A DNA stretch of 64,000 nt, from positions 55,996 to 119,995 of IMG/VR virus record IMGVR_UViG_3300001533_003144; one strand, written 5' to 3'. Position numbers and translations under genes: made by a program. The notes below the pieces were generated by a model. The model was given only the letters and a program-made list of their open reading frames with translations, searched no databases and had not been told where the DNA came from. Below, one piece after another: positions 8,847-60,211 of this stretch. This DNA is from a virus. Each line of letters starts with the position of its first letter. Within the stretch, counting starts at the first letter, position 1.

Positions 8847-9626
8847 ATGCGAGTAGTTGTTTCTGTTTGGGCTTCTTATCAAACAAGAGAGCGGTCAGAT
8901 TTTAAGGAAGGGACTGTATCGTTAGTTTTTAACGGTGTTCCTTGTAAGGACCGGATTACTGCTGAGATAGTTTCTCAGACTGCTTATATTGCTGATAACA
9001 ACGGTAATACACCATTGAACTGGGCTTCCTATTATGGAAACATCGAAATAGTAGAACTACTTTTACAAGCAGGAGCAGACCCGAATATTGCCAATAAAAA
9101 CGGCAATACACCGTTGTACGAGGCTTCCTCTAAGGGTCATAAGGAAGTTGTAGAACTACTTTTACAAGCAGGGGCAGACCCGAATATTGCCGATAACAAC
9201 GGCAATACGCCGTTGAACTGGGCTTCCTATTATGGAAACATCGAAATAGTAGAACTACTTTTACAAGCAGGAGCAGACCCGAATATTGCCAATAAAAACG
9301 GCTATACACCGTTGTACTGGGCTTCCTATAATGTACACCACGAGGTTGTAGAATTACTTTTAAAATCAGGAGCAGACCCGAATATTGCCGATAAATACGG
9401 CCAAACACCGTTATACTGGGCTTCCTATAGGGGGCACCGCGAAATAGTAGAACTACTGTTACAAGCAGGAGCAGACCCGAATATTGCCAATAAAAACGGC
9501 AATACACCGTTGTACGAGGCTTCCTCTAAGGGTCATAAGGAAGTTGTAGAATTACTGTTACAAGCAGGGGCAGACCCGAATATTGCCGATAACCTCTTTG
9601 GTTTGGTCTCTTGTATCAGTGAGTAA
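8847..9626 (+). CDS. Ankyrin-repeat protein, 259 aa
   Basis: The ATG at 8847 is chosen for GGAGG six bases upstream. About 50 unique residues (MRVVVSVWASYQTRERSD...) are followed by six 33-residue ankyrin repeats with the consensus NGNTPLxWAS, EIVELLLQAGADPNIA. It then ends abruptly (DNLFGLVSCISE). Ankyrin proteins bind other proteins; in a phage this suggests interaction with a host target, but none is indicated. Repeats 1 and 3, and repeats 2 and 6, are identical or nearly so at protein level, showing recent duplication or conversion. Transcription would come from the early promoter at 8353 through the untranslated leader. Confidence 0.85.
   Translation: MRVVVSVWASYQTRERSDFKEGTVSLVFNGVPCKDRITAEIVSQTAYIADNNGNTPLNWASYYGNIEIVELLLQAGADPNIANKNGNTPLYEASSKGHKEVVELLLQAGADPNIADNNGNTPLNWASYYGNIEIVELLLQAGADPNIANKNGYTPLYWASYNVHHEVVELLLKSGADPNIADKYGQTPLYWASYRGHREIVELLLQAGADPNIANKNGNTPLYEASSKGHKEVVELLLQAGADPNIADNLFGLVSCISE
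8994..9587 (+). repeat. Six tandem 99-bp ankyrin-coding repeats
   Basis: An exact 99-bp period runs across six units. DNA identity between units is very high outside a few codons, with units of two alternating types (DNNGNTPLNWASYYGN and NKNGNTPLYEASSKGH). The array should be prone to unit gain and loss by recombination. Confidence 0.9.
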
Positions 9627-10705: not shown

Positions 10706-11506
10706 ATGTTGAGAACTAAGCAAGAAATAAAAAATCTTCTTAAAGAGAGAGTTAAGCAGTTAATGGAGACCCGAATAGGTGCGGTGGAAGATGCTCTTAA
10801 TCTGTGGGGTAAGGTAGAACACACTGATAAACAATCTTGGTGGTATATACCGCCAAAGGGAGGAAAGCCGCCTAAAGCCTGTATGGTAGCCCACATAGAC
10901 ACGGTTGACGATGATAGCAGGAGGGTTGTTAAAGATCTGGATGCTGTCCTGTTATTGGATCCCCCTTCCGAGTCGAGTTGTTTAGGGGCAGATGATCGTG
11001 CCGGGGTAGTTGCTTCTACCTTTTTATGGGAACAGAATCCTGAAGTAGCTCTACTTCTTACTAATTATGAAGAGTCCGGTCGTGCGGGGGTTGCTAATTT
11101 TTGCGATGCTTTTGAATCCCTTGGTATAGATTTTTCGGATCTCAGACTATTTATCTCAATAGACCGTAAAGGTACGCACCATTTTGTGGATTATGCTGGT
11201 AATCCTTATGCGGGGAATGATTGGGTGCGTTCTTTTGGGTGGGAAGAGGAGTACGGGTCTTTTTCAGACATTGCTACTTTACAGCTCCTATTAAAAGTAC
11301 CTGCAATAAATATAGCTACAGGGTATTATCACGAACATACCCTGTACGAACTTTTGGTAATGTCTGAATGGGTTTTTGCTATAGATTTTGTTCAAAAGCT
11401 TATAGATAATATTGCTGGGTGTCCTGTTTTAAGGATTACTGGTGAAATTGATCCTGATGCTGTTTTTTGTTATGATGATATTTATAGATCTGGTTCCGTA
11501 TTATAA
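10706..11506 (+). CDS. Zinc aminopeptidase-like protein (M20/M28/M42 clan pattern), 266 aa
   Basis: The co-catalytic zinc pattern of clan MH can be traced in order: H63-x-D65 (VAHIDTV), D96/D97 (LGADDRAGV), E122-E123 (TNYEESG), D153 (ISIDRKGTH) and H209 or H211 (YYHEHTLYE). The spacing and the GADDRAG and EESG motifs match these exopeptidases and amidohydrolases. At 266 residues it is shorter than usual, consistent with loss of the lid/dimer domain. It would hydrolyse a peptide or amide in the cytoplasm; the substrate is unknown. It ends S-V-L-stop within a class 2 promoter motif. Confidence 0.7.
   Translation: MLRTKQEIKNLLKERVKQLMETRIGAVEDALNLWGKVEHTDKQSWWYIPPKGGKPPKACMVAHIDTVDDDSRRVVKDLDAVLLLDPPSESSCLGADDRAGVVASTFLWEQNPEVALLLTNYEESGRAGVANFCDAFESLGIDFSDLRLFISIDRKGTHHFVDYAGNPYAGNDWVRSFGWEEEYGSFSDIATLQLLLKVPAINIATGYYHEHTLYELLVMSEWVFAIDFVQKLIDNIAGCPVLRITGEIDPDAVFCYDDIYRSGSVL
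11494..11505 (+). promoter_or_regulatory. Class 2 phage promoter motif TTCCGTATTATA
   Basis: An exact copy of the 12-mer overlaps the last codons and stop of the peptidase gene and ends 27 bases before the ATG at 11533. Confidence 0.6.
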
Positions 11507-33087: not shown

Positions 33088-34563
33088 ATGCCTAGTTTGG
33101 TTAAAAGTACCGAGCAAATAAGAAAAAGTCTTTTAGAAAAGCTTACGGTAGATCTTCCGGATTTTCTTTGGGTACCAGGCGAGTTACAGGTAGATATTTT
33201 AGATGCTGTTGCTGAGTTTCATTATGAAAGAGAACGGATTGTTGAACTGTTTACATCTATGCGTAACCTGTCTGGGTTTAAGAGGTTAGTGGACGATTAT
33301 ATTTATCGTCAAGAAATGTCAGAAATACTTGGGTTGTCTCTAAAAGTAAGAACCCCCTCCAGTGTCTTTATCGGAGTCCCTTCTTCGGTTACAAACGATT
33401 TTGATGTCTTTATTTTTTATTATCTGGACAGGTTTGCCGAAAGGTATGGAAGGAAAAGGGGTCGAGGTTCTTCTGCCAGTGGTCTGTTTTCAATGAACTA
33501 TACTCCGGGGATTGTGGGGAAAGCTCGACTGGTTTTAAGTTATTCCGGGATGTCTTATACTTCTACGGTTAATCTTGATGGTAGTGGTGTTTATTCCGGG
33601 ACACTTTTTTCTTTCGGGTATGGTGAAAAGTTTAATGTTAAGGCAGGTAATCTGTCTATCAGTCTTGTAATATCTGATGTGCTTACTGTTGAAAACATTT
33701 TTAATTTTAAATCTTCCAATTTGATAGGTGGTACTGATTATCAGTCAAATGAGTCTTTTATTAAAGCTTTAGACGGTAGGTTGAATATCTTTTCAGGTCC
33801 TCTTTCAATTAATGCTATTTCAACGGTGATACAAAAAATAAAGACTGTAGATAAATTCTTGATTACTAAGGCTTCTGCTTCTTATAGGTTTAAGGGTAGT
33901 ACCAATGTGTTTCTCAAGGGAGGTATCCAGTCAGAGCAAAAGGTGGTCAGGACGGTGGGGACGGATAGTAAGATACTCATTCCTTTACAGCCTTCAGAGA
34001 TTCTTGAGATAACTAAGTTGGGGGCAGTTATTCCCGAAACGGAATACACGATAGTTACTCCTGATCCCGATACGGAGTATTATAACAGTGCTAAACAAAT
34101 GGTTTGGGTTGAGTTTGCCGGGAGTTTAGTTTTTCCGGGAGATATGGTCGAGTTGTCTTTATTGGTAGATCTTACCATACAGGATGTACACACCCAGTTA
34201 ATGTCACATTACAGCTCATATAATGAGACTGCTCGTGATGTAGTGGTGTATAAAGCTCAGCCTCAGCAGGTTAATGTTTATACCGAGATTATGACTTACC
34301 GTAACCTTCCTTATGATGAAGTTAAGCGTGAGGTAAAGAAGGTTTTGATTGAAAAAATAGGTGGTCTTGATATACAGGAAGAGTTACAGGCGGATGATCT
34401 TCGTTTGGAGTTGCGTAAGCTGTTGTGTCGGGGTGAGTTAATGATTGATGCCGTTGTTAAGCTTGACATAGGTTTACCGGGAGAGCCTTTACTTGACCAG
34501 AATTTATCTTTAGGTAGAGGTGAGTTTTGGGTGCTTTCTGAACTGGATGTAGAGGTGCTTTAA
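33088..34563 (+). CDS. Baseplate wedge protein, gpJ-like, 491 aa
   Basis: The central motif IGGTDYQSNESFIKALDGRLN (about residues 216-236) matches the GGTDxETDEELRxRI signature of the baseplate J family. The N-terminus (DLPDFLWVPGELQVDILDAVA) and the C-terminal strand-helix repeats also fit. It forms the ring joining wedges to the hub. It overlaps the next start by one base. Confidence 0.7.
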   Translation: MPSLVKSTEQIRKSLLEKLTVDLPDFLWVPGELQVDILDAVAEFHYERERIVELFTSMRNLSGFKRLVDDYIYRQEMSEILGLSLKVRTPSSVFIGVPSSVTNDFDVFIFYYLDRFAERYGRKRGRGSSASGLFSMNYTPGIVGKARLVLSYSGMSYTSTVNLDGSGVYSGTLFSFGYGEKFNVKAGNLSISLVISDVLTVENIFNFKSSNLIGGTDYQSNESFIKALDGRLNIFSGPLSINAISTVIQKIKTVDKFLITKASASYRFKGSTNVFLKGGIQSEQKVVRTVGTDSKILIPLQPSEILEITKLGAVIPETEYTIVTPDPDTEYYNSAKQMVWVEFAGSLVFPGDMVELSLLVDLTIQDVHTQLMSHYSSYNETARDVVVYKAQPQQVNVYTEIMTYRNLPYDEVKREVKKVLIEKIGGLDIQEELQADDLRLELRKLLCRGELMIDAVVKLDIGLPGEPLLDQNLSLGRGEFWVLSELDVEVL

Positions 34564-36182
34564 TGTTTAATAGTATTTTATACCCTGTTGGCTTTGAAAC
34601 TCCTGTTGTTATGGGGAGTAATATAGGTCTAAAGGATATGATAAATTATACCCGTCCCGTCAGAATAGCCTATCCTGAGTCAGTAGGGGTTTGGCAGCTA
34701 ATGAACGATGATTCTAAGTTTGGTCTTTTAAGTGAGGCGGCTTATAGTGTTTTTAAGGGAAATCTCTTAGTTATAGGTGGTAAAATCTCTACGGATATAC
34801 AGAACCGTATTTTTTACAGTAAAGACTATGGTAAGTCTTGGCAGAACAAAAAAGGGGAGTTTCCCGAAAGGTGTGGGGCTTCTCTGGTTGAATTTCGGGG
34901 TTTCCTATATCTTATGGGGGGTGAGGCCTCTTCAGGGCTTACAAACGAAATTTGGAGGTCGGCGGATGGGGTGCATTGGTTACAGTCCAGTTCATCCAGT
35001 CCTTTTACTCCTCGAAAAAACTTTACGGTGGCTGTTTTAAATGATGCTCTTATCTTAACCGGTGGGTCTGGACCCGAAGCAAAAGAGGTCTGGAAATCTT
35101 ATGATGGTATAAATTGGGAACTTATTCACGCTGATGCTCCTTTTGGGGAGCTTGAAAACTCTTCTATGATTCAGTTTGGGTCAAAACTGTTCTTAGTAGG
35201 AGGTAAATCGGGTGTAATGTATTCTAATTCCGTATATTCTACCGAGAATGGTGTGGACTGGGTACTTGTTACAAATACGGCTTTTCCTTCCGGGAGATAT
35301 GGTGTAGGGTTGGTTGTAATTTCCGGGGAGTTGGTTGCTGTGGGGGGTAATGACGGTTCTTCCCTTAATGCGGTCTATTTTTCTTCGGGAGGTTTGACTT
35401 GGGTAGAGGATGCCTCCCCTCAGTTGTTTTCTCCTCGATACTCTTTTGGTGTAGGGGTGGTTGATGGGGGTTTGGTTGTTTATGGTGCTGCAAATGATGT
35501 TTATCGTAAAGTAATTTCGTATGAAATGTTTTTAGACGGTACACTTATACCCTACGGAGCAGAGTTTGTTATATGGGATGAGACTTATCACGAACTGATA
35601 ATAAAACAAGAGAAGGAATCAGTATTAACTCGATTTTGTACCTTAATTGGGGGTTTCTGGGATCAGGTTAATGAGATGGTTGGTAACATAATTGCTATTG
35701 AAGGAGATTATACAGAGAGATATTATATTGGTTCTGAGGTGTTGTTGTATAATACTGAGACCAAAGCCGAGGGGTTTAAGGAGATTGTAAGTTCTTCTTT
35801 TGACGGTACTAATACCTTGATAGAGATAGAATCCTCGGTTTCATTTACTCCGGATTATTTATGTCCTCATTCCGGGTTGAAAGAATACTTAAAGTTAAAA
35901 TTCAAGCCTGAAGTAAAGTTTATAGCTGCTTCGGTTGAAAATTTTATGAGTAAGGCTTCTTTGAAACCTCAAGGAGGTGTGATCGAGTCGGAAGGAGGTG
36001 TTGACATTCTTTCTGATAGGGTTTATGTGGCTGAATTTCTTTCTAAAGAGAGGGCAGTGGATAAAGCTGTTGTTATGTCCGGAGATTATAAAACAAAGAT
36101 ACAGCCTATGTTCCGTATTATAGTTAGGGATGAGTTTAATAAGGTTCTTTTAGAAGATAAGATAAGTTTTGATTTTATTTAA
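34563..36182 (+). CDS. Kelch/beta-propeller baseplate-region protein, 539 aa
   Basis: Residues 60-310 hold about five kelch-like blades with recurring GGKIS..NRIFYSKDYGKSW, LYLMGGE..NEIWRSADGVHW, LILTGGS..EVWKSYDGINW and LFLVGGK..NSVYSTENGVDW. A beta propeller follows from this. An N-terminal 50 residues and a C-terminal 200-residue beta region flank it. The placement after gpJ suggests a peripheral wedge or adhesin. The end of the gene contains a class 2 promoter 12-mer. Confidence 0.65.
   Translation: MFNSILYPVGFETPVVMGSNIGLKDMINYTRPVRIAYPESVGVWQLMNDDSKFGLLSEAAYSVFKGNLLVIGGKISTDIQNRIFYSKDYGKSWQNKKGEFPERCGASLVEFRGFLYLMGGEASSGLTNEIWRSADGVHWLQSSSSSPFTPRKNFTVAVLNDALILTGGSGPEAKEVWKSYDGINWELIHADAPFGELENSSMIQFGSKLFLVGGKSGVMYSNSVYSTENGVDWVLVTNTAFPSGRYGVGLVVISGELVAVGGNDGSSLNAVYFSSGGLTWVEDASPQLFSPRYSFGVGVVDGGLVVYGAANDVYRKVISYEMFLDGTLIPYGAEFVIWDETYHELIIKQEKESVLTRFCTLIGGFWDQVNEMVGNIIAIEGDYTERYYIGSEVLLYNTETKAEGFKEIVSSSFDGTNTLIEIESSVSFTPDYLCPHSGLKEYLKLKFKPEVKFIAASVENFMSKASLKPQGGVIESEGGVDILSDRVYVAEFLSKERAVDKAVVMSGDYKTKIQPMFRIIVRDEFNKVLLEDKISFDFI
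36111..36122 (+). promoter_or_regulatory. Class 2 promoter motif TTCCGTATTATA within a gene end
   Basis: An exact copy of the 12-mer lies inside the last codons of the kelch gene, ending 70 bases before the ATG at 36193. That is farther than the other copies, so function here is less sure. Confidence 0.4.
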
Positions 36183-38997: not shown

Positions 38998-39007
38998 TTA
39001 TATAATA
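38998..39007 (+). promoter_or_regulatory. Class 3 (late) promoter motif TTATATAATA
   Basis: It lies in the 74-base gap before the fibre gene and ends 40 bases before the ATG at 39048. Confidence 0.6.
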
Positions 39008-43397: not shown

Positions 43398-46379
43398 ATG
43401 TTAGTTAAATCACATAAACTGTTTATTGGTGATCAAGGTGATGTTATTCCCGTAGAAGCCCGTGTGAGTAAGGAGGCCGTATCTTCTTTACTTTCTTCTT
43501 TCTCGGTTTCCGGGGTTAAGCTTCTTCCTAAAGAAGAAGGTTCTTTTCTTTGTACTAATTATATCTTTCCTATAAAAGGTTCTGTAGTAAAGAACTCTTC
43601 AGGGAAAAGGTTTGGTAAGGTTTCCTGTTTTGGTAAATCTCATTATTTTAAACTGGTTTCCGGTGAACTTAATGATGCCATAAAACAGGTTAGAGCTATT
43701 ATAGATGAAGTGTTTGCAGGTGATGTGGTTTCGACTTTTGAGTTTAAAGATGGTTCGTATGTTTCTGCTGTAAGTATGGGATCTGGTCAGCCTGTTTATT
43801 CGCGGTTTATTTTGTCAGGGAAACCTTCCAGTCAGGCTGGTGTTTTCTTGAAAAGGGTTGAAGCTATGCCGGTAGATAAACGGACTTCTTATATAGACAA
43901 AAAGGTTGAAGGTTCTGATAAGTCCTTTGAAGTTGTATCATCAAAAAGATCGCCAAGTATGTTCCGGGTTTATGCTACAAAGATGAGTCGTGTAGTACAT
44001 CATCTTGATAAAGCGGCTATGGGAGAGGGTACTGTAGGTATTTTTACTTCGTTTCAAGCTCCTCGTAAAGGATCTACAATAGACCATACTAAGAACGAAA
44101 AGAATTATCGTGAACTCGGTAATATCTTAAAAAACCTTTTAAGCGGACCAATTCCTATGGATGGTGTGTGGCAAGGAGAAGCAGAAAAATCTTATATGGT
44201 TCCTGATATACCTTTAGAGATGTTGAAAGCCCTTAATAATAGGTACAATCAGGCTGCTTTTATCTATGCAGGACCAGAAACTTCTGGATCCTTTCAGTTA
44301 TGGGGTAGTCCTTCTCCGGGATCTGGTCCAGAGGACTATCAGATTATAGATACTTGGAACAATTATGCTGTGTCTGGTCTAAAAGAACCTCAAGGATATA
44401 CACGGTTACCTGATACTCCTCATAAATTCAGTTACTATGAGGGAGGTGATACTCCTCAAGAATATCTTAAAGCTGTGGATGATCTTAATTCTTTTGTTAA
44501 TAAAGGCATTGAACAGGTTAAAGTGCAGTTTCCTGAGGCTAAAAGGGAGCCTCGGGTTAGAGAAAAACACGAGAAGTTGAAAGAACAGGTGGCAGCTTCA
44601 AAGGAACTTCCTCCTGACCCTTTTGCAAGGCCTACTGTAGTTCCTTCTTATTATAAGGTATGGTTTTTGGAATCTGATCCTGATTTAAAAAGTAAGCCTG
44701 TAGTTCTTTTTGATAAAATCTCAAGAAAGGACTGGCAGCAATATATTAGGGATAATGTTTTAATGTTTGTTCCGGAAGAGACTCCTACTTCACTGGTTTC
44801 AGGGCATTATTCCGATACGGAAGGTAATGTTTATCTTATAGGGTATCCTGATCAGGAACACCCTTTCGGGGTAGATTCATCTTCACAGGAGGGTATTTAC
44901 TATGTCTCTGCAACTAAGTCAGGTAATCCGGAGAAGATGGAATTTGGTTGGGGGCGTGGTTTTTATTTAAATCCTCATAAAGAAGAAGCCTTAGAGATCA
45001 GTGAGAATGCTGTCCCTGTTAGGTTGAAGCTAAATAGTCCTTATGATGCCAATAAAGGGATACCTGAAGGGATTGAGGGTACTCAGGTGCATTCTGAATG
45101 GGTCAATAAGTTCCGGAACAAAGAAGAAGTCTTAGAAGAAGAGATTTTAGATCCCAGAGATTTTTGGGAGCAGTATGATCGTTATGCCTCTGAGGTTTTA
45201 CAGGAGTTGGGTTATGACGGTATTGTTAATGTAGATATTGGAAGTTCACCTACCTGGGCATTTGTTTTTAATTTAGATTCTTTAGTTGTTCAAGCCAACC
45301 TTAAACATCTTCCGTATTATAATAGAGGGAAAAGGAAACAGAACCCTGGAGGTAATATGGAAACAAAAAGTATGTATGCTTCGGTAGGGTATTGGATTAG
45401 TCCGGTTGGTGCGGTAGTTGAGTGTCATACTTCTCACATTGCAGAAATAATCCGTAAACCTGAGAATTTTGGTTACACTACAGAGAGGATTGATGAACTG
45501 TACGAGAAACACAATGAACCTAAAGGACACGAAGGTCACGCCCGTGAAGAGATTATGAGAGACCTGATCGGGAAAGGTTGGATCCGTATCCGGTGGGTCC
45601 CAAAACGGTATGCTTTTGTTGTTCAGATAGCCCGTATGTCTAAAAAGGTTATGGATAATTTACAGAAATGGGCTATGCAGCTTGTTCAAAGTGGCTCAAT
45701 GCCTAATGCGGATGTCTCTATTCTACCAATTGATTCTGGGGTAGATCAGTCTTTTCACAGCCTCAAAGACATCGCGGCAGATGTGCTTTTTACAACTTAT
45801 GCTAAGGAGGTTTCAATGTCATTTAAAGTTGTGTTTGAAAATGGTGATTATCTTTTCACTAAACTATCTCCGGGTAAGACCTTGGAAGATGCTAAAGATT
45901 ATTACATAGGAAAAGAGTTTACTTTTGGGACTGGAGATAAAACAGATCCCGAAAGAGAGGTTAAGGCTGTTGATGTCTTTTCTGTTGGTGATATTAAAGC
46001 CTCATCTTCGGTACCTCAACAGGCAATTGATGCTTACAAAGAGGCCGTGATCTGGACTAATGAAGAGATGTGGAAAAGAGATGATCCTGAAGCTTCTTTT
46101 GATTTCTCTGACTTTTCTCCGGGAGCTTTACAGACAATTCAAGAGGATCTCGGTAAGTTTTATTCCGAAAACTCCGAGGATATTGAAATGTTCAAAAAAG
46201 AACACGGTGTAGATGATTCTCAGGTGGCTCATTCTTTCTGGTTGACCAGAGAAGGACACGGTGCAGGGTTCATTGATTTCGATTCGGAATATGCTGATCG
46301 TCTTAGCGAGGCTTCCGGGGTTTTTGGTGAAGCTGATGCCTATGTCGGTGATGATGGTCAGATCTATTTTATGCGATAA
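43398..46379 (+). CDS. Multidomain 993-aa protein, possible ADP-ribosyltransferase-like domain
   Basis: At least three parts. Residues 1-400 are unrecognised. Residues 410-630 contain GIYYVSATKSG, WGRGFYLNPHKEEALEI, VPVRLKLNSPYDA and LQELGYDGIVNV ... AFVFNLDSLVV, in the order seen in polyvalent-protein ART domains (GxYFT, xVxLxxxNP, GYDGII, xVFxPxQI). I infer this from pattern only. Residue 654 onward is a second module with its own internal promoter motif, ribosome site and ATG. From residue 807 there is a third, again with its own ribosome site. It sits last in the late block and may be injected with the DNA. Confidence 0.55.
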   Translation: MLVKSHKLFIGDQGDVIPVEARVSKEAVSSLLSSFSVSGVKLLPKEEGSFLCTNYIFPIKGSVVKNSSGKRFGKVSCFGKSHYFKLVSGELNDAIKQVRAIIDEVFAGDVVSTFEFKDGSYVSAVSMGSGQPVYSRFILSGKPSSQAGVFLKRVEAMPVDKRTSYIDKKVEGSDKSFEVVSSKRSPSMFRVYATKMSRVVHHLDKAAMGEGTVGIFTSFQAPRKGSTIDHTKNEKNYRELGNILKNLLSGPIPMDGVWQGEAEKSYMVPDIPLEMLKALNNRYNQAAFIYAGPETSGSFQLWGSPSPGSGPEDYQIIDTWNNYAVSGLKEPQGYTRLPDTPHKFSYYEGGDTPQEYLKAVDDLNSFVNKGIEQVKVQFPEAKREPRVREKHEKLKEQVAASKELPPDPFARPTVVPSYYKVWFLESDPDLKSKPVVLFDKISRKDWQQYIRDNVLMFVPEETPTSLVSGHYSDTEGNVYLIGYPDQEHPFGVDSSSQEGIYYVSATKSGNPEKMEFGWGRGFYLNPHKEEALEISENAVPVRLKLNSPYDANKGIPEGIEGTQVHSEWVNKFRNKEEVLEEEILDPRDFWEQYDRYASEVLQELGYDGIVNVDIGSSPTWAFVFNLDSLVVQANLKHLPYYNRGKRKQNPGGNMETKSMYASVGYWISPVGAVVECHTSHIAEIIRKPENFGYTTERIDELYEKHNEPKGHEGHAREEIMRDLIGKGWIRIRWVPKRYAFVVQIARMSKKVMDNLQKWAMQLVQSGSMPNADVSILPIDSGVDQSFHSLKDIAADVLFTTYAKEVSMSFKVVFENGDYLFTKLSPGKTLEDAKDYYIGKEFTFGTGDKTDPEREVKAVDVFSVGDIKASSSVPQQAIDAYKEAVIWTNEEMWKRDDPEASFDFSDFSPGALQTIQEDLGKFYSENSEDIEMFKKEHGVDDSQVAHSFWLTREGHGAGFIDFDSEYADRLSEASGVFGEADAYVGDDGQIYFMR
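45310..45321 (+). promoter_or_regulatory. Class 2 promoter motif TTCCGTATTATA inside the 993-aa gene
   Basis: An exact copy of the 12-mer lies inside the large coding sequence, ending 36 bases before an in-frame ATG (45357) with GGAGG. Spacing matches the intergenic copies. Confidence 0.55.
45357..46379 (+). CDS. Internal-start product of the 993-aa gene, 340 aa
   Basis: An in-frame ATG at 45357 (METKSMYASVGYWISPVG) is preceded by GGAGG with five bases of spacing, and 36 bases further up by the class 2 promoter 12-mer. The product would be the second and third modules alone. The first 140 residues (HTSHIAEIIRKPENFGYTTE, WIRIRWVPKRYAFVVQIARM) form a compact alpha/beta domain of unknown function. 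A second strong site (AAGGAGG, 45804-45810) with ATG 45816 could yield a still shorter 187-residue form. Confidence 0.45.
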   Translation: METKSMYASVGYWISPVGAVVECHTSHIAEIIRKPENFGYTTERIDELYEKHNEPKGHEGHAREEIMRDLIGKGWIRIRWVPKRYAFVVQIARMSKKVMDNLQKWAMQLVQSGSMPNADVSILPIDSGVDQSFHSLKDIAADVLFTTYAKEVSMSFKVVFENGDYLFTKLSPGKTLEDAKDYYIGKEFTFGTGDKTDPEREVKAVDVFSVGDIKASSSVPQQAIDAYKEAVIWTNEEMWKRDDPEASFDFSDFSPGALQTIQEDLGKFYSENSEDIEMFKKEHGVDDSQVAHSFWLTREGHGAGFIDFDSEYADRLSEASGVFGEADAYVGDDGQIYFMR

Positions 46380-46472: not shown

Positions 46473-46517
46473 GAAATTGAAAATTTCTCTTGACATAGGG
46501 TGTCAATCTGATATTCT
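46473..46517 (+). promoter_or_regulatory. Early sigma70-type promoter with palindromic operator
   Basis: GAAATT-GAA-AATTTC (46473-46487), TC, TTGACA (46490-46495), a 16-base spacer beginning TAGGG, and TATTCT (46512-46517). It drives the second early operon. The 170-base gap it lies in shows an AT-rich palindrome around 46425 but no clear terminator for the late block. Confidence 0.75.
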
Positions 46518-47640: not shown

Positions 47641-47683
47641 TAGGTAAAAGAGCTTGTACTGATTGTAATTAATGGGAGGTAAT

Positions 47684-48832
47684 ATGAGAACTATTGAACT
47701 TAAAGAGATTGGAAAGTCTTTAAAGCTGTTCCAGAATGCAGGGAAACTTGTTACGATACTGGGAAATGTGCTTGTGAAAAATCAGAAAGGTAAACTTACT
47801 TTTACGGTATCTACTTTAGAAGAGTTTTTTACCGGCAGTATGATAAGTGATTGTTCCAAAGCCTTTGAAGTGCTTGTTGAGACCTCTCAGCTTGTCAAGA
47901 TTATAGACTTCTTGGAAGAGGAAGTTTTTGAAGTCGGTCTTACACAAGATCATTTAATTTTCTCTTCGGGTGGTCTGGAATACAAGCTTCTTATGAATGG
48001 TTCTGACTTGATTGGAGATTTTCCTTCAGTAGGTGTAGGTGGTGTGTCTTTTAAGGATTTCCCTAAACCTGAGTATATTTCCTGTAGCAGGGTACTTCTC
48101 GATGAGATTGTTAAAAGGGTAGGGTTTTGTACTGCTGAAAAGAGTCGCAATGCTTCTTATTCTGGTATGTTGTTTACTCCTAATCTCGATGATCCTGAAA
48201 TATCCGATATAGTTGCTACGGATATATGGCGGCTTATTCAGGCCAAGACGGGGCTTTTTAAAGTTGAAACTCCCTTTGTTCTGCCTTTAACGGTAGCAAA
48301 AAACACTCTTAAAATTTTCAAAGTGTTCACAGGGTTTGAAGTGTTCTTTACAAAAAACGATGATGAGTTACCTATGTCTTTCATCAGGGTACACAACAGT
48401 TCTGGGACATACTATGCCCGACTGCTTAGGAACGAGTTTCCTCAGTATGCTCAGATATTGTCTCCTATTGACAAGTTTCCTACCGGTAAGGTGGATCGGG
48501 TTGAGCTTCTGCATATTATAGATAAGATGGCAAAGCTGGATAAAGATGCAATTGTCCCTGTAAGGTTTGAAGTTCCTCAAGATGGGGATACTTTTTTAAA
48601 GCTTTCGTCCAAAAGCATTACAGGTAAAGTAGATTGGAAAGGTCATGGAGGGTTTCTTGTGGGGGTTAATGCAAACCTTCTTGTAGATTATCTTAAAATT
48701 TCTAAACAGGTAGAGATTGATCTTGGTGTATCTCTCAGTGAGTCTTGTGGACCTACGGTTAAACCTGTGTTCATTAAAGAGAAAACCGGTACTCTGGAGA
48801 TATTTTACATTCAGATGCCTGTAAAACTTTAG
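47684..48832 (+). CDS. DNA polymerase sliding clamp, DnaN-like, 382 aa
   Basis: The ATG at 47684 is chosen because GGGAGG lies between it and an upstream ATG. The length and three-domain pattern of a bacterial beta clamp are present: an N-terminal domain ending before residue 120, KRVGFCTAEKSRNASYSGML (domain 2 start), IVATDIWRLIQAK (compare ATDGHRLA), YYARLLRNEFPQYAQILSP (compare RLIDGKFPDYRRVIP), and the end YIQMPVKL (compare YxxMPMRL). It would encircle DNA and tether the polymerase. Its presence suggests the phage uses or supplies a bacterial-type replisome together with the DnaB-like helicase. Confidence 0.8.
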   Translation: MRTIELKEIGKSLKLFQNAGKLVTILGNVLVKNQKGKLTFTVSTLEEFFTGSMISDCSKAFEVLVETSQLVKIIDFLEEEVFEVGLTQDHLIFSSGGLEYKLLMNGSDLIGDFPSVGVGGVSFKDFPKPEYISCSRVLLDEIVKRVGFCTAEKSRNASYSGMLFTPNLDDPEISDIVATDIWRLIQAKTGLFKVETPFVLPLTVAKNTLKIFKVFTGFEVFFTKNDDELPMSFIRVHNSSGTYYARLLRNEFPQYAQILSPIDKFPTGKVDRVELLHIIDKMAKLDKDAIVPVRFEVPQDGDTFLKLSSKSITGKVDWKGHGGFLVGVNANLLVDYLKISKQVEIDLGVSLSESCGPTVKPVFIKEKTGTLEIFYIQMPVKL

Positions 48833-55445: not shown

Positions 55446-58400
55446 ATGCCTTTAGATACAAAATTCAATGCAATGATTCCGAGAGATAATAGAGATCTTT
55501 TAGTGGAAGATCTCGAAAATCAGTCAAATGCTATACACAATGCTATTGGAGATCGTCAGGATGATGTTCATCCGGAGTTTGCCGGCACCGTAAAGTCAGA
55601 GGTAGCAGGGGTTGTCTGGGGACTGAAGGTGTCGTATGTTGCCGGTACAGATACTTTGGATATAAGCCCTGGAGTTGTCTTTAACCGGGGACGAAGGGGT
55701 TCTATAGCGACTATTAAATCTATTCCTATGGCTTCGGTGTCTGTAGATGATTTTATTGTAGCTCGGATTTGGTTTGAAGATGTTGATCTCAAAACTAATC
55801 CTGTAACTCATGTTAATGAGCCTGTCTATAGGCTGTACCATTGTGACATAGAAGTTAAGGTTATAGGTGACATAGACGAGGATGATGTGGTTATCGGTAA
55901 GGTTGTAGATATAGACGGGGGTGTGCCTATACTGGGAGATACTGCTTTATGGGAATATGTTTCCGGAGGTAATCATATCCGGTTTATACCTCGTAATAAT
56001 GTAGGCGAAGATATATTTGGCCCTGTTGGTAATAAATATTTTGTGCGGTTCAGTGTATTGTCCGATACCCCTATATCCGTTCAAAAGCTTAAAGATACTT
56101 CGGGACTTGATTTTACTTATCTGAACATACAGCTACAAGGAGACAGTTCCGGGGTAGTTATATCAACTTTACAGCAGATAATTGATGCAGTGAACTCTAC
56201 TCCAGGGTATTTTCGTGCGGAACTGGTATCTGGTTCGGGTTCTTTTGTACCTACATTGCTTCCTACTTTGTATGCCTCTTACAGTCAGTTTTCGGGTGGG
56301 GTTGATTATAGGAATTATTATGAGACAGTGTCAGGCAGCCGGTCGCTTGCGGTAACTGAGCGGTTTAATACTTCGGATCCTTATACAAAACATATTTCGC
56401 AGAAAGGAAGGGGGGTTCCCTCGGACCGTAATCCGCATGGTATGACTCTTGAAGATATGGGCGTGGCTGAGTTGAGTACGGAAGAACATATTAAAAGGGA
56501 ACATTTTTCGGCTTCTACTTTACCTCGGTCAGCTTCTTCTATTTTTTTAAGAACCGAAATTGTTTCAGCCTTTGAACTTAAAATTAATAAAAGTTCAGGG
56601 GTAGATGATGTTGGTTTGATACAGGGGCGTGTTTTAAAGGTGGCTTCTGATCTGATTCTTAATACCCCTTCTTTAGCTAAACAGGAGCTTTATCAGTTCT
56701 TTCTTACCCAGGGAGGGACAATTCAACATAGGATTATTGCGGAATATAAAGAATTTCCAGGGTATCCTGAGATATTGAGCGGTATCCGTACCGTACTATC
56801 TACTGTAGATAAAGACCCTTATTTAGCCGGGGATAAGATGCTGGAACTGGTTGTTTCTGGAGGTGGTACGGTTTTTACTGCAAGGTTAGGTGATTTGGGT
56901 GCTCCTGTTGGTGTTTCAGTAGAGGGGGAGTGTTTGTTAGTAGATGTTTCAGTAGAGGGGGAGTATTTGTTAGTAGATCCTTCCGATAATACTTGGATAC
57001 GGGTTTACCGGGAAAATGAGGCTATGCCTGATGGAGATTATCGTAATACGGTTACTTTTACGCCTTTTATGGAGATTACCGAATTACCTATATCAATGGT
57101 GTTCTGGAAAGGGCATCAGACCGAATGGGGTTATAGTTCCTCACAGCTTTTTAAAGATTTAAGATCGTATGGTTCTTTTTCTGTGAATAATGAAAAATAT
57201 CTGGATCTTGCTAATACGGTTCCTGTAGATTTCCGGGAAACTTCTTTAGGAGGTTTTACTGCTTTTGAGGGATCAAGTCGGGATCTAACGGTAAACCCTT
57301 TTAAGATAAAGTACAGGGGTACCCTTTACAGAAAAACAACTGCAACGGTTTTAACTATCCCTGAAGATTTCGAGGGCTACTTGTGTGCTTCTTTTGACGG
57401 TTTACAGGGGATGTCACTTTCGGTAGTTTCTGAATCCTCTTTTGAGCTAATGCCTGATCGGGTAATACTGGCTAAAGCTGTGTCTGATGCTGTCGAGATT
57501 ACGACAGTGTCGGAAACCTTTTTTACCGGTAGTTATAATCTGTCAGATAAGTTTTACGAGTTCAATATTTCTAAGGAAGAGGATTTCATTTATGCTTTAA
57601 GGACAGTTAAGGCTTTAGAAGGTACTCCTGGTATTGCAGCTTTTGTTTTTAATGTTCGGGAGAATCTTACTATAAACACGAATTCAATTTTTTCGGGTAC
57701 CAATAGCATTTATTCTCCTTTTATTTTAAACGGCCACAATAAGAGACTCAGTTTTACTGGTAGCACGCAGATCAGGATGGATGAATCTGTAATTAAAGAC
57801 TGCTTTATAGATACAGATGCTGCTGTTTTTTATAGTATTGGTGTTGATAGTCATTGTACCTTTCAGGACAGTTTTATTACTGGGACAGTAGCTTTTGGCG
57901 AGTTTTTAGGTAGAGTAGAGTTTTTCAATTGTTATGTGGGTAAATTTAAGGTAGGTGTTCGAGTTGATATGGTTGGAGGTCGATTACTTGATTCTATTGT
58001 TACTGTAAGTGATGCTGCTCAGGTAAATATGTCTAAGGTAGAATTTAGTGCCTCTGTTCCTATGTTATATTGTGAATCTTATGTTCCTCTTATAGATGGT
58101 ACAGATATCAATGCTTTAAATGTATCTTTAATACACTGCAGGGTATTCGGTAATGGTTCTTTAATTAATGTAGATCCGGGGTGTCCTGAAGGGCACATAA
58201 ACCTAAGTCTTATAGATTCCCGAATTAAATTTTCTTCGCCTGTTACCTGTGACCTGTCTGGACATTGGTTGGATGTTAGTGTTCTTAACGGGGCTTTAGG
58301 CAATTGTGTGTTTGTTGGGCGATCAGCTTTACTTTCAGGTTATAGTGGTTTTTTTGCCGTAGAAGGTACTACGCTGTCCGGGATTATTGGGTTCAAGTAT

Positions 58401-60199: not shown

Positions 60200-60211
60200 T
60201 TCCGTATTATA
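60200..60211 (+). promoter_or_regulatory. Class 2 phage promoter motif TTCCGTATTATA, first of a pair
   Basis: An exact 12-mer in the 208-base gap after the giant fibre. No start codon with a good ribosome site lies directly behind it; the next gene is at 60319. Confidence 0.55.

Follow-up and report, generated by a model that had tools for sequence, protein, structure and literature searches.

The locus described here lies in a 119,995-base record classed as virus, within a stretch of 64,000 nucleotides (positions 55,996 to 119,995 of the record) referred to below as the window. The genome is that of a tailed phage with contractile-tail genes, including sheath-like and baseplate wedge genes. 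Its plus strand carries at 43398-46379 a reading frame of 993 codons that is uninterrupted by stops. Inside this frame lie a promoter-like motif, two in-frame start codons with ribosome sites and a predicted RNA hairpin, while a sliding-clamp gene is located downstream. The features are collected in Table 1.

Table 1. Features in and around the 993-codon frame (window coordinates unless a contig is named)
Feature	Position	Strand	Basis or content
Putative fused ORF P0001, 993 codons	43398..46379	+	ORF call
Module 1, the 653 codons before the first internal ATG	43398..45356	+	DUF3293-like stretch, ADP-ribosyltransferase-like stretch, then linker
Class 2 promoter-like 12-mer TTCCGTATTATA, read in the ORF within HLPYYN	45310..45321	+	sequence
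GGAGG, putative ribosome site for the first internal start	45348..45352	+	sequence
Predicted RNA hairpin over ribosome site and ATG (45348-45359)	45343..45390	+	fold prediction
Module 2, 152 aa, METKSMYASVGYWISP...	45357..45812	+	free-standing 139-aa gene in L015
Second internal start, AAGGAGG-N5-ATG (ATG 45816)	45804..45818	+	sequence
Module 3, 187 aa, PHROG 1915 family	45816..46379	+	profile match, E 2e-18
Nearest upstream class 1 motif TTATATAATA	38998..39007	+	motif list
Sliding-clamp gene, downstream	47672..48832	+	phrog_947, E 9e-27
Class 1 motif, exact copies	13039, 23315, 38998, 55402; L004:12260; L005:3599, 7718, 9922, 13192	+	motif list

Homologues of the whole 993-aa protein were not found in IMG/VR. 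Four contigs were retrieved via the capsid protein; the two nearest are only 21 kb and 8 kb long, and the remaining pair are 45-46% relatives. The protein has no homologue in any of the four, and neither IMG/VR nor these contigs yielded a close relative carrying the 993-codon locus; helicase and sheath queries likewise returned no relatives. The fold of the full-length protein, predicted without an alignment, was uninformative (mean pLDDT 33).

Two motif classes and the copy inside the reading frame

The class 2 12-mer occurs in seven exact copies in the window, all on the plus strand, and with 10 copies in the record it is the most frequent 12-mer there. Its 11-mer core, TCCGTATTATA, is present 12 times in the record, again always on the plus strand, which also carries nearly all genes. 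In a weight matrix, the 12 class 2 sites score 19.7-25.7 bits and the next best site in the genome, on either strand, reaches 10.2 bits; the 11 core positions are invariant across the 12 copies. The 45310 site is, as judged from its sequence, a genuine member of a sharply defined, genome-wide promoter-like motif class. For this copy, the probability that synonymous choice would produce the 12-mer, given the protein LPYYN, is 0.023, and PYY occurs only six times in the called proteome.

The copy counts, the weight-matrix gap of more than 9 bits and the 0.04 core copies expected within coding sequence when synonymous codons are shuffled across all called genes led to the rejection of a chance origin. 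When IMG/VR was scanned for the 12-mer together with GGAGGT, six contigs emerged; each has one or two copies of the core, which corresponds to the chance level. Host-type sigma-70 sites around the locus are no more frequent than in shuffles. A search for a T7-type RNA polymerase gave no match, but the control likewise matched nowhere.

The exact 12-mer at 45310, the GGAGG at 45348 and the in-frame ATG at 45357 (METKSMYAS), which the first-pass annotation had reported inside the 993-codon frame, are all present. Its further statement that their spacing equals that of intergenic copies also holds. The motif ends 36 nt before the ATG, and at 10 of the 11 other class 2 sites the start follows after 22-83 nt (22, 28, 28, 29, 32, 37, 39, 44, 71 and 83 nt). 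At the eleventh, the upstream member of the 60200/60271 pair, the distance is 108 nt. Measured to the next annotated gene, the 45310 motif would stand more than 1,200 nt away, and a GGAGG-ATG arrangement at matching distance from a random coding position has a frequency of 0.0047. Because the internal ATG falls within the spacing of the other sites, the 45310 copy behaves like the intergenic ones. Its location in coding sequence alone is not special, since two further copies, at 11494 and 36111, are likewise located in the 3' ends of the ORFs that precede them. Only at 45310 does the upstream frame run on to the downstream start without meeting a stop.

Two further class 2 arrangements can be described here. 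The copy at 36111 lies inside an ORF with kelch repeats (34563-36182), near its 3' end, with the next start 71 nt on. The motifs at 60200 and 60271, 71 bases apart, are located upstream of a gene with WDGH and NTP-pyrophosphohydrolase-like parts.

The class 1 motif has nine exact copies, all on the plus strand, and a few one-mismatch copies before genes. The exact copies are mostly found upstream of virion or lysis genes; genes preceded by class 1 sites include a head-protease-like gene, the major head protein operon, a virion structural gene, tail genes and a spanin-like gene. The motif recurs in the relative L017, once upstream of the orthologous protease-like gene. Class 2 sites lie upstream of SbcC- and SbcD-like genes and, at 83 nt, of a sigma-70 region 2-like gene (L003:11809-12479). 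The latter matches region 2 with E 2e-5, under the curated cut-off, and a PHROG sigma factor with E 2e-6, while no sigma-70 region 4 is detectable in it; it is a candidate late sigma factor for class 1. The simplest reading of this gene content is that class 2 would act earlier and help to make the sigma factor for class 1. Such an order would parallel T4, whose middle genes include factors that programme late transcription (PMC2988021).

The nested product had been proposed to appear at a different time from the late full-length protein. Gene content fits early or middle activity of class 2 and late activity of class 1, which agrees with this proposal, whereas the 993-codon ORF has no class 1 motif of its own directly before 43398. 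The nearest is at 38998, and no convincing terminator lies between it and 43398. The 38998 motif is likely to be the late promoter for 39048 onward and, via read-through, for the 993-codon ORF. In the other direction, no further class 2 motif occurs between 45310 and the clamp gene at 47672, into which the 45310 unit would continue. The 45310 promoter would have a reason to exist even if the nested protein were minor, since its unit would carry the sliding clamp; the clamp cluster downstream may rely on this promoter no less than the nested product does.

Modules, internal starts and a predicted hairpin

The 993-codon ORF looks like three fused genes. In module 1, residues 225-287 (about 44070-44258) form a DUF3293-like stretch with a Pfam match just under the cut-off (E 4e-5). 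Residues 194-298 match the DUF3293-like part of a protein in contig L002, and a short match occurs in a separate early-region gene of phage PGT2. The L002 domain is itself weakly similar to an S-adenosylmethionine lyase family (E 0.0012, under the cut-off). Residues about 480-632 (about 44829-45290) resemble a phage ADP-ribosyltransferase by eye only, with neither profile nor tblastn support. The linker that follows and bears the 12-mer reads like a translated intergenic region.

Module 2 aligns with a free-standing 139-aa gene of the metagenome contig L015, from a common start point to an end near the second joint. The L015 gene begins MKNKAYWISPKGE, aligned to METKSMYASVGYWISPVGA of module 2. 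The L002 protein has module 2 on the C-terminal side of its DUF3293-like domain, within a single open frame, and an ATG near this module joint has no ribosome site, which indicates that module 2 can work within a fusion. Folded alone, module 2 is predicted with a pLDDT of 83, and values below 50 are confined to the first seven and last three residues. In this model, it is an independently folding domain with its edge at the internal ATG 45357. Among viral proteins, a free-standing phage protein of 117 aa matches its structure best; the PDB gave no convincing structural match.

Module 3 covers profile positions 10-139 of 141 in PHROG 1915, a family matched in 162 phage records. Its counterparts are separate CDSs in Kikimora and phiK7A1 (206 and 241 aa; both records checked). 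When the region was sought as a free-standing gene elsewhere, as the first-pass annotation had advised, module 2 was thus found as its own gene in L015 and module 3 in many phages. This suggests that the internal ATGs represent former gene borders.

The second internal start, at 45816, was absent from the earlier description; it consists of AAGGAGG, 5 nt and an in-frame ATG (MSFKVV). The GGAGG-to-ATG spacing is 4 nt at 45357 and 5 nt at 45816. Both starts are in frame, have their own ribosome site and share the stop of the long ORF, so the layout is that of nested in-frame genes. Among the 496 in-frame ATGs located at least 30 codons inside the called genes of this phage, only four are preceded by GGAGG at 3-10 nt, and two of these four are 45357 and 45816 (hypergeometric P 0.009). 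Both coincide exactly with the module joints, and an out-of-frame TAA at 45803-45805 overlaps the ribosome site of the 45816 start. The candidate shorter products are of 340 aa and 187 aa, and the gene probably gives rise to one or both of these in addition to the long protein.

In a transcript beginning after the 12-mer, the first ribosome site and its ATG (45348-45359) are predicted to pair with 45371-45390. The hairpin has a predicted energy of -15.9 kcal/mol (z -2.8), and one of 200 shuffles is as stable. Predicted mean accessibility at 45357 is 0.06, the lowest of 20 promoter-proximal starts (0.23-0.72 at the other 19), and at 45816 it is ordinary (0.33-0.43). With only 20 nt of downstream sequence present, that is, before the 3' half of the hairpin exists, the 45357 site is predicted to be open (0.65), so ribosome loading early in transcription would be possible. 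In a long transcript, the 12-mer is predicted to pair with the 45357 start region (z -1.1, not unusual).

The separate synthesis of the C-terminal 340 residues, as proposed in the first-pass annotation, is consistent with the motif class and the module edge. The predicted pairing of the 45357 start weakens this part of the proposal, and the second start at 45816 adds a further candidate product to it. Since the ribosome site and ATG at 45357 are paired in a strong hairpin in the model, efficient synthesis of the 340-aa product appears doubtful; the 187-aa product from 45816 is likely. The hairpin hints at translational control at 45357. In T4, the internal start of gene 49 is under hairpin control.

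Weighing of possible explanations

The preferred explanation, to which a probability of about 0.55 is assigned, is a three-gene fusion that has retained its internal starts and a working class 2 promoter, yielding long and short proteins. Three once-separate, co-oriented phage genes would have become a single ORF with no stop codon left between them. Modules 2 and 3 would retain their own ribosome sites and ATGs (45357 and 45816), with a working class 2 promoter still present between modules 1 and 2, in the linker. The 993-aa protein would be made late in infection, from transcripts that read through from the class 1 promoter at 38998. Earlier, class 2 transcription would begin just after 45321, and its transcript would allow modules 2 and 3 to be translated separately (as 340 aa and/or 187 aa) before running on into the replication genes, the sliding clamp included. 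The motif class and its spacing, the two internal starts and the module boundaries can be read directly from the sequence; from these we infer that the motifs act as promoters, when they would act, and that long and short products would both arise.

An alternative that is possible, though clearly less probable, accepts the promoter as real but regards it as the promoter of the middle genes that follow from 46553, among them the clamp gene. The start codon at 45357 would then be a relic yielding hardly any 340-aa protein, if any, and module 3 would at most be translated. The lack of a further class 2 motif between 45310 and 47672 agrees with it, as does the predicted burial of the first ribosome site in a hairpin. 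Two other copies, 11494 and 36111, offer a parallel, since each lies inside the 3' end of an upstream ORF and serves the next gene. This reading does not explain why GGAGG is kept at optimal spacing at both internal starts, an arrangement rare within the genes of this phage (4/496), and the genes from 46553 might instead be transcribed from a weak sigma-70-like site at 46490. A separate, speculative reading, which we regard as improbable, is that an RNA switch sets the timing of the inner proteins, with module 3 early, modules 2 and 3 conditionally and the full fusion late. The hairpin would lock 45357 in transcripts from the inner promoter; in long late transcripts the 12-mer would pair with the start region instead, and ribosomes translating the long protein would open either structure.

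It is similarly improbable that the fusion is an assembly or sequencing artefact. In that case, one-base errors would have erased the stops separating three ordinary genes, and the motif would be an intergenic promoter of the usual kind. Out-of-frame stops do exist at the first joint (45302, 45320, 45323 and 45353), and the one at 45803 overlaps the ribosome site of the second joint, a common gene-to-gene layout. Runs of five T occur upstream of both joints, and a run assembled one base too long or too short could give rise to a fusion. Nevertheless, two independent errors would be required, the alignment to L015 and L002 stays in the current reading frame across nearly all of module 2, and L002 independently fuses module 2 behind a DUF3293-like domain in an open frame. 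Least probable of all is that the full-length protein is the sole product, with the motif and the starts inside the frame being fossils or coincidences. The uninterrupted coding frame would suit this idea; yet an exact motif in coding sequence is expected only 0.04 times, a ribosome site with ATG at that spacing has the low frequency given above (0.0047), and a fossil should drift, while 11 of 11 core bases are intact.

Comparison with known systems

Two products from one frame under two promoter classes had been expected to be unusual, but the arrangement has precedents in T4. Middle promoters inside T4 genes carry names ending in i (P34i, P46i) (PMC2988021), and a reference cited in the same source concerns, by its title, nested proteins of gene 49. 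The present locus resembles T4 in its in-frame nested product and in a phage promoter placed within another gene. It differs in that the nested part comprises two modules that are free-standing elsewhere and has two internal starts; moreover, the 12-base motif does not resemble MotA boxes. Phage endolysins often have internal starts as well (PMC9430671). Those producing two polypeptides share with this locus the layout of a single ORF whose in-frame internal start has a ribosome site of its own and uses the common stop; unlike it, they use internal translation starts with no promoter mentioned in the text of that paper, and the modules described here are not lysis proteins. In Rpn long and short proteins, the C-terminal part is likewise translated separately from within the gene, but the family is unrelated and the Rpn short form inhibits the long one (PMC10327210). 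What is new is that a fusion of modules combines two internal starts with an intact promoter from a different class, whereas nested genes and intragenic promoters were already known.

Phages commonly encode long polyvalent proteins (Iyer et al. 2017, PMC5512222), and the 993-aa protein may be comparable to them as a large, apparently multi-domain phage protein near late genes. It possibly contains anti-restriction and ADP-ribosyltransferase-like parts; the word 'promoter' is absent from the text of that paper. The position of the ORF after structural genes is only suggestive with respect to packaging into the virion and injection. Another possible multi-domain effector in this phage is a 1,012-aa protein (L005:108-3146) with a ParB-like stretch in its middle.

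The proposed arrangement offers a plausible origin route for multi-domain phage proteins, in which neighbouring genes fuse while the old promoter and ribosome sites stay in use. One stretch of DNA could then serve both as free proteins and within a large late protein. It is also a warning that automatic gene calls hide such nested products. Two very clean motif classes, together with the phage's own sigma-like gene, would make a tidy test system.

Other features of this genome include a TTGACATAGGGTGTCAA palindrome at window 46490-46506, in the intergenic region after the fusion gene, which overlaps a weak sigma-70-like site and is a possible operator. Direct repeats occur inside ORFs at window 9019-9582 and 1297-1760, with 99-base and 75-base periods, respectively.
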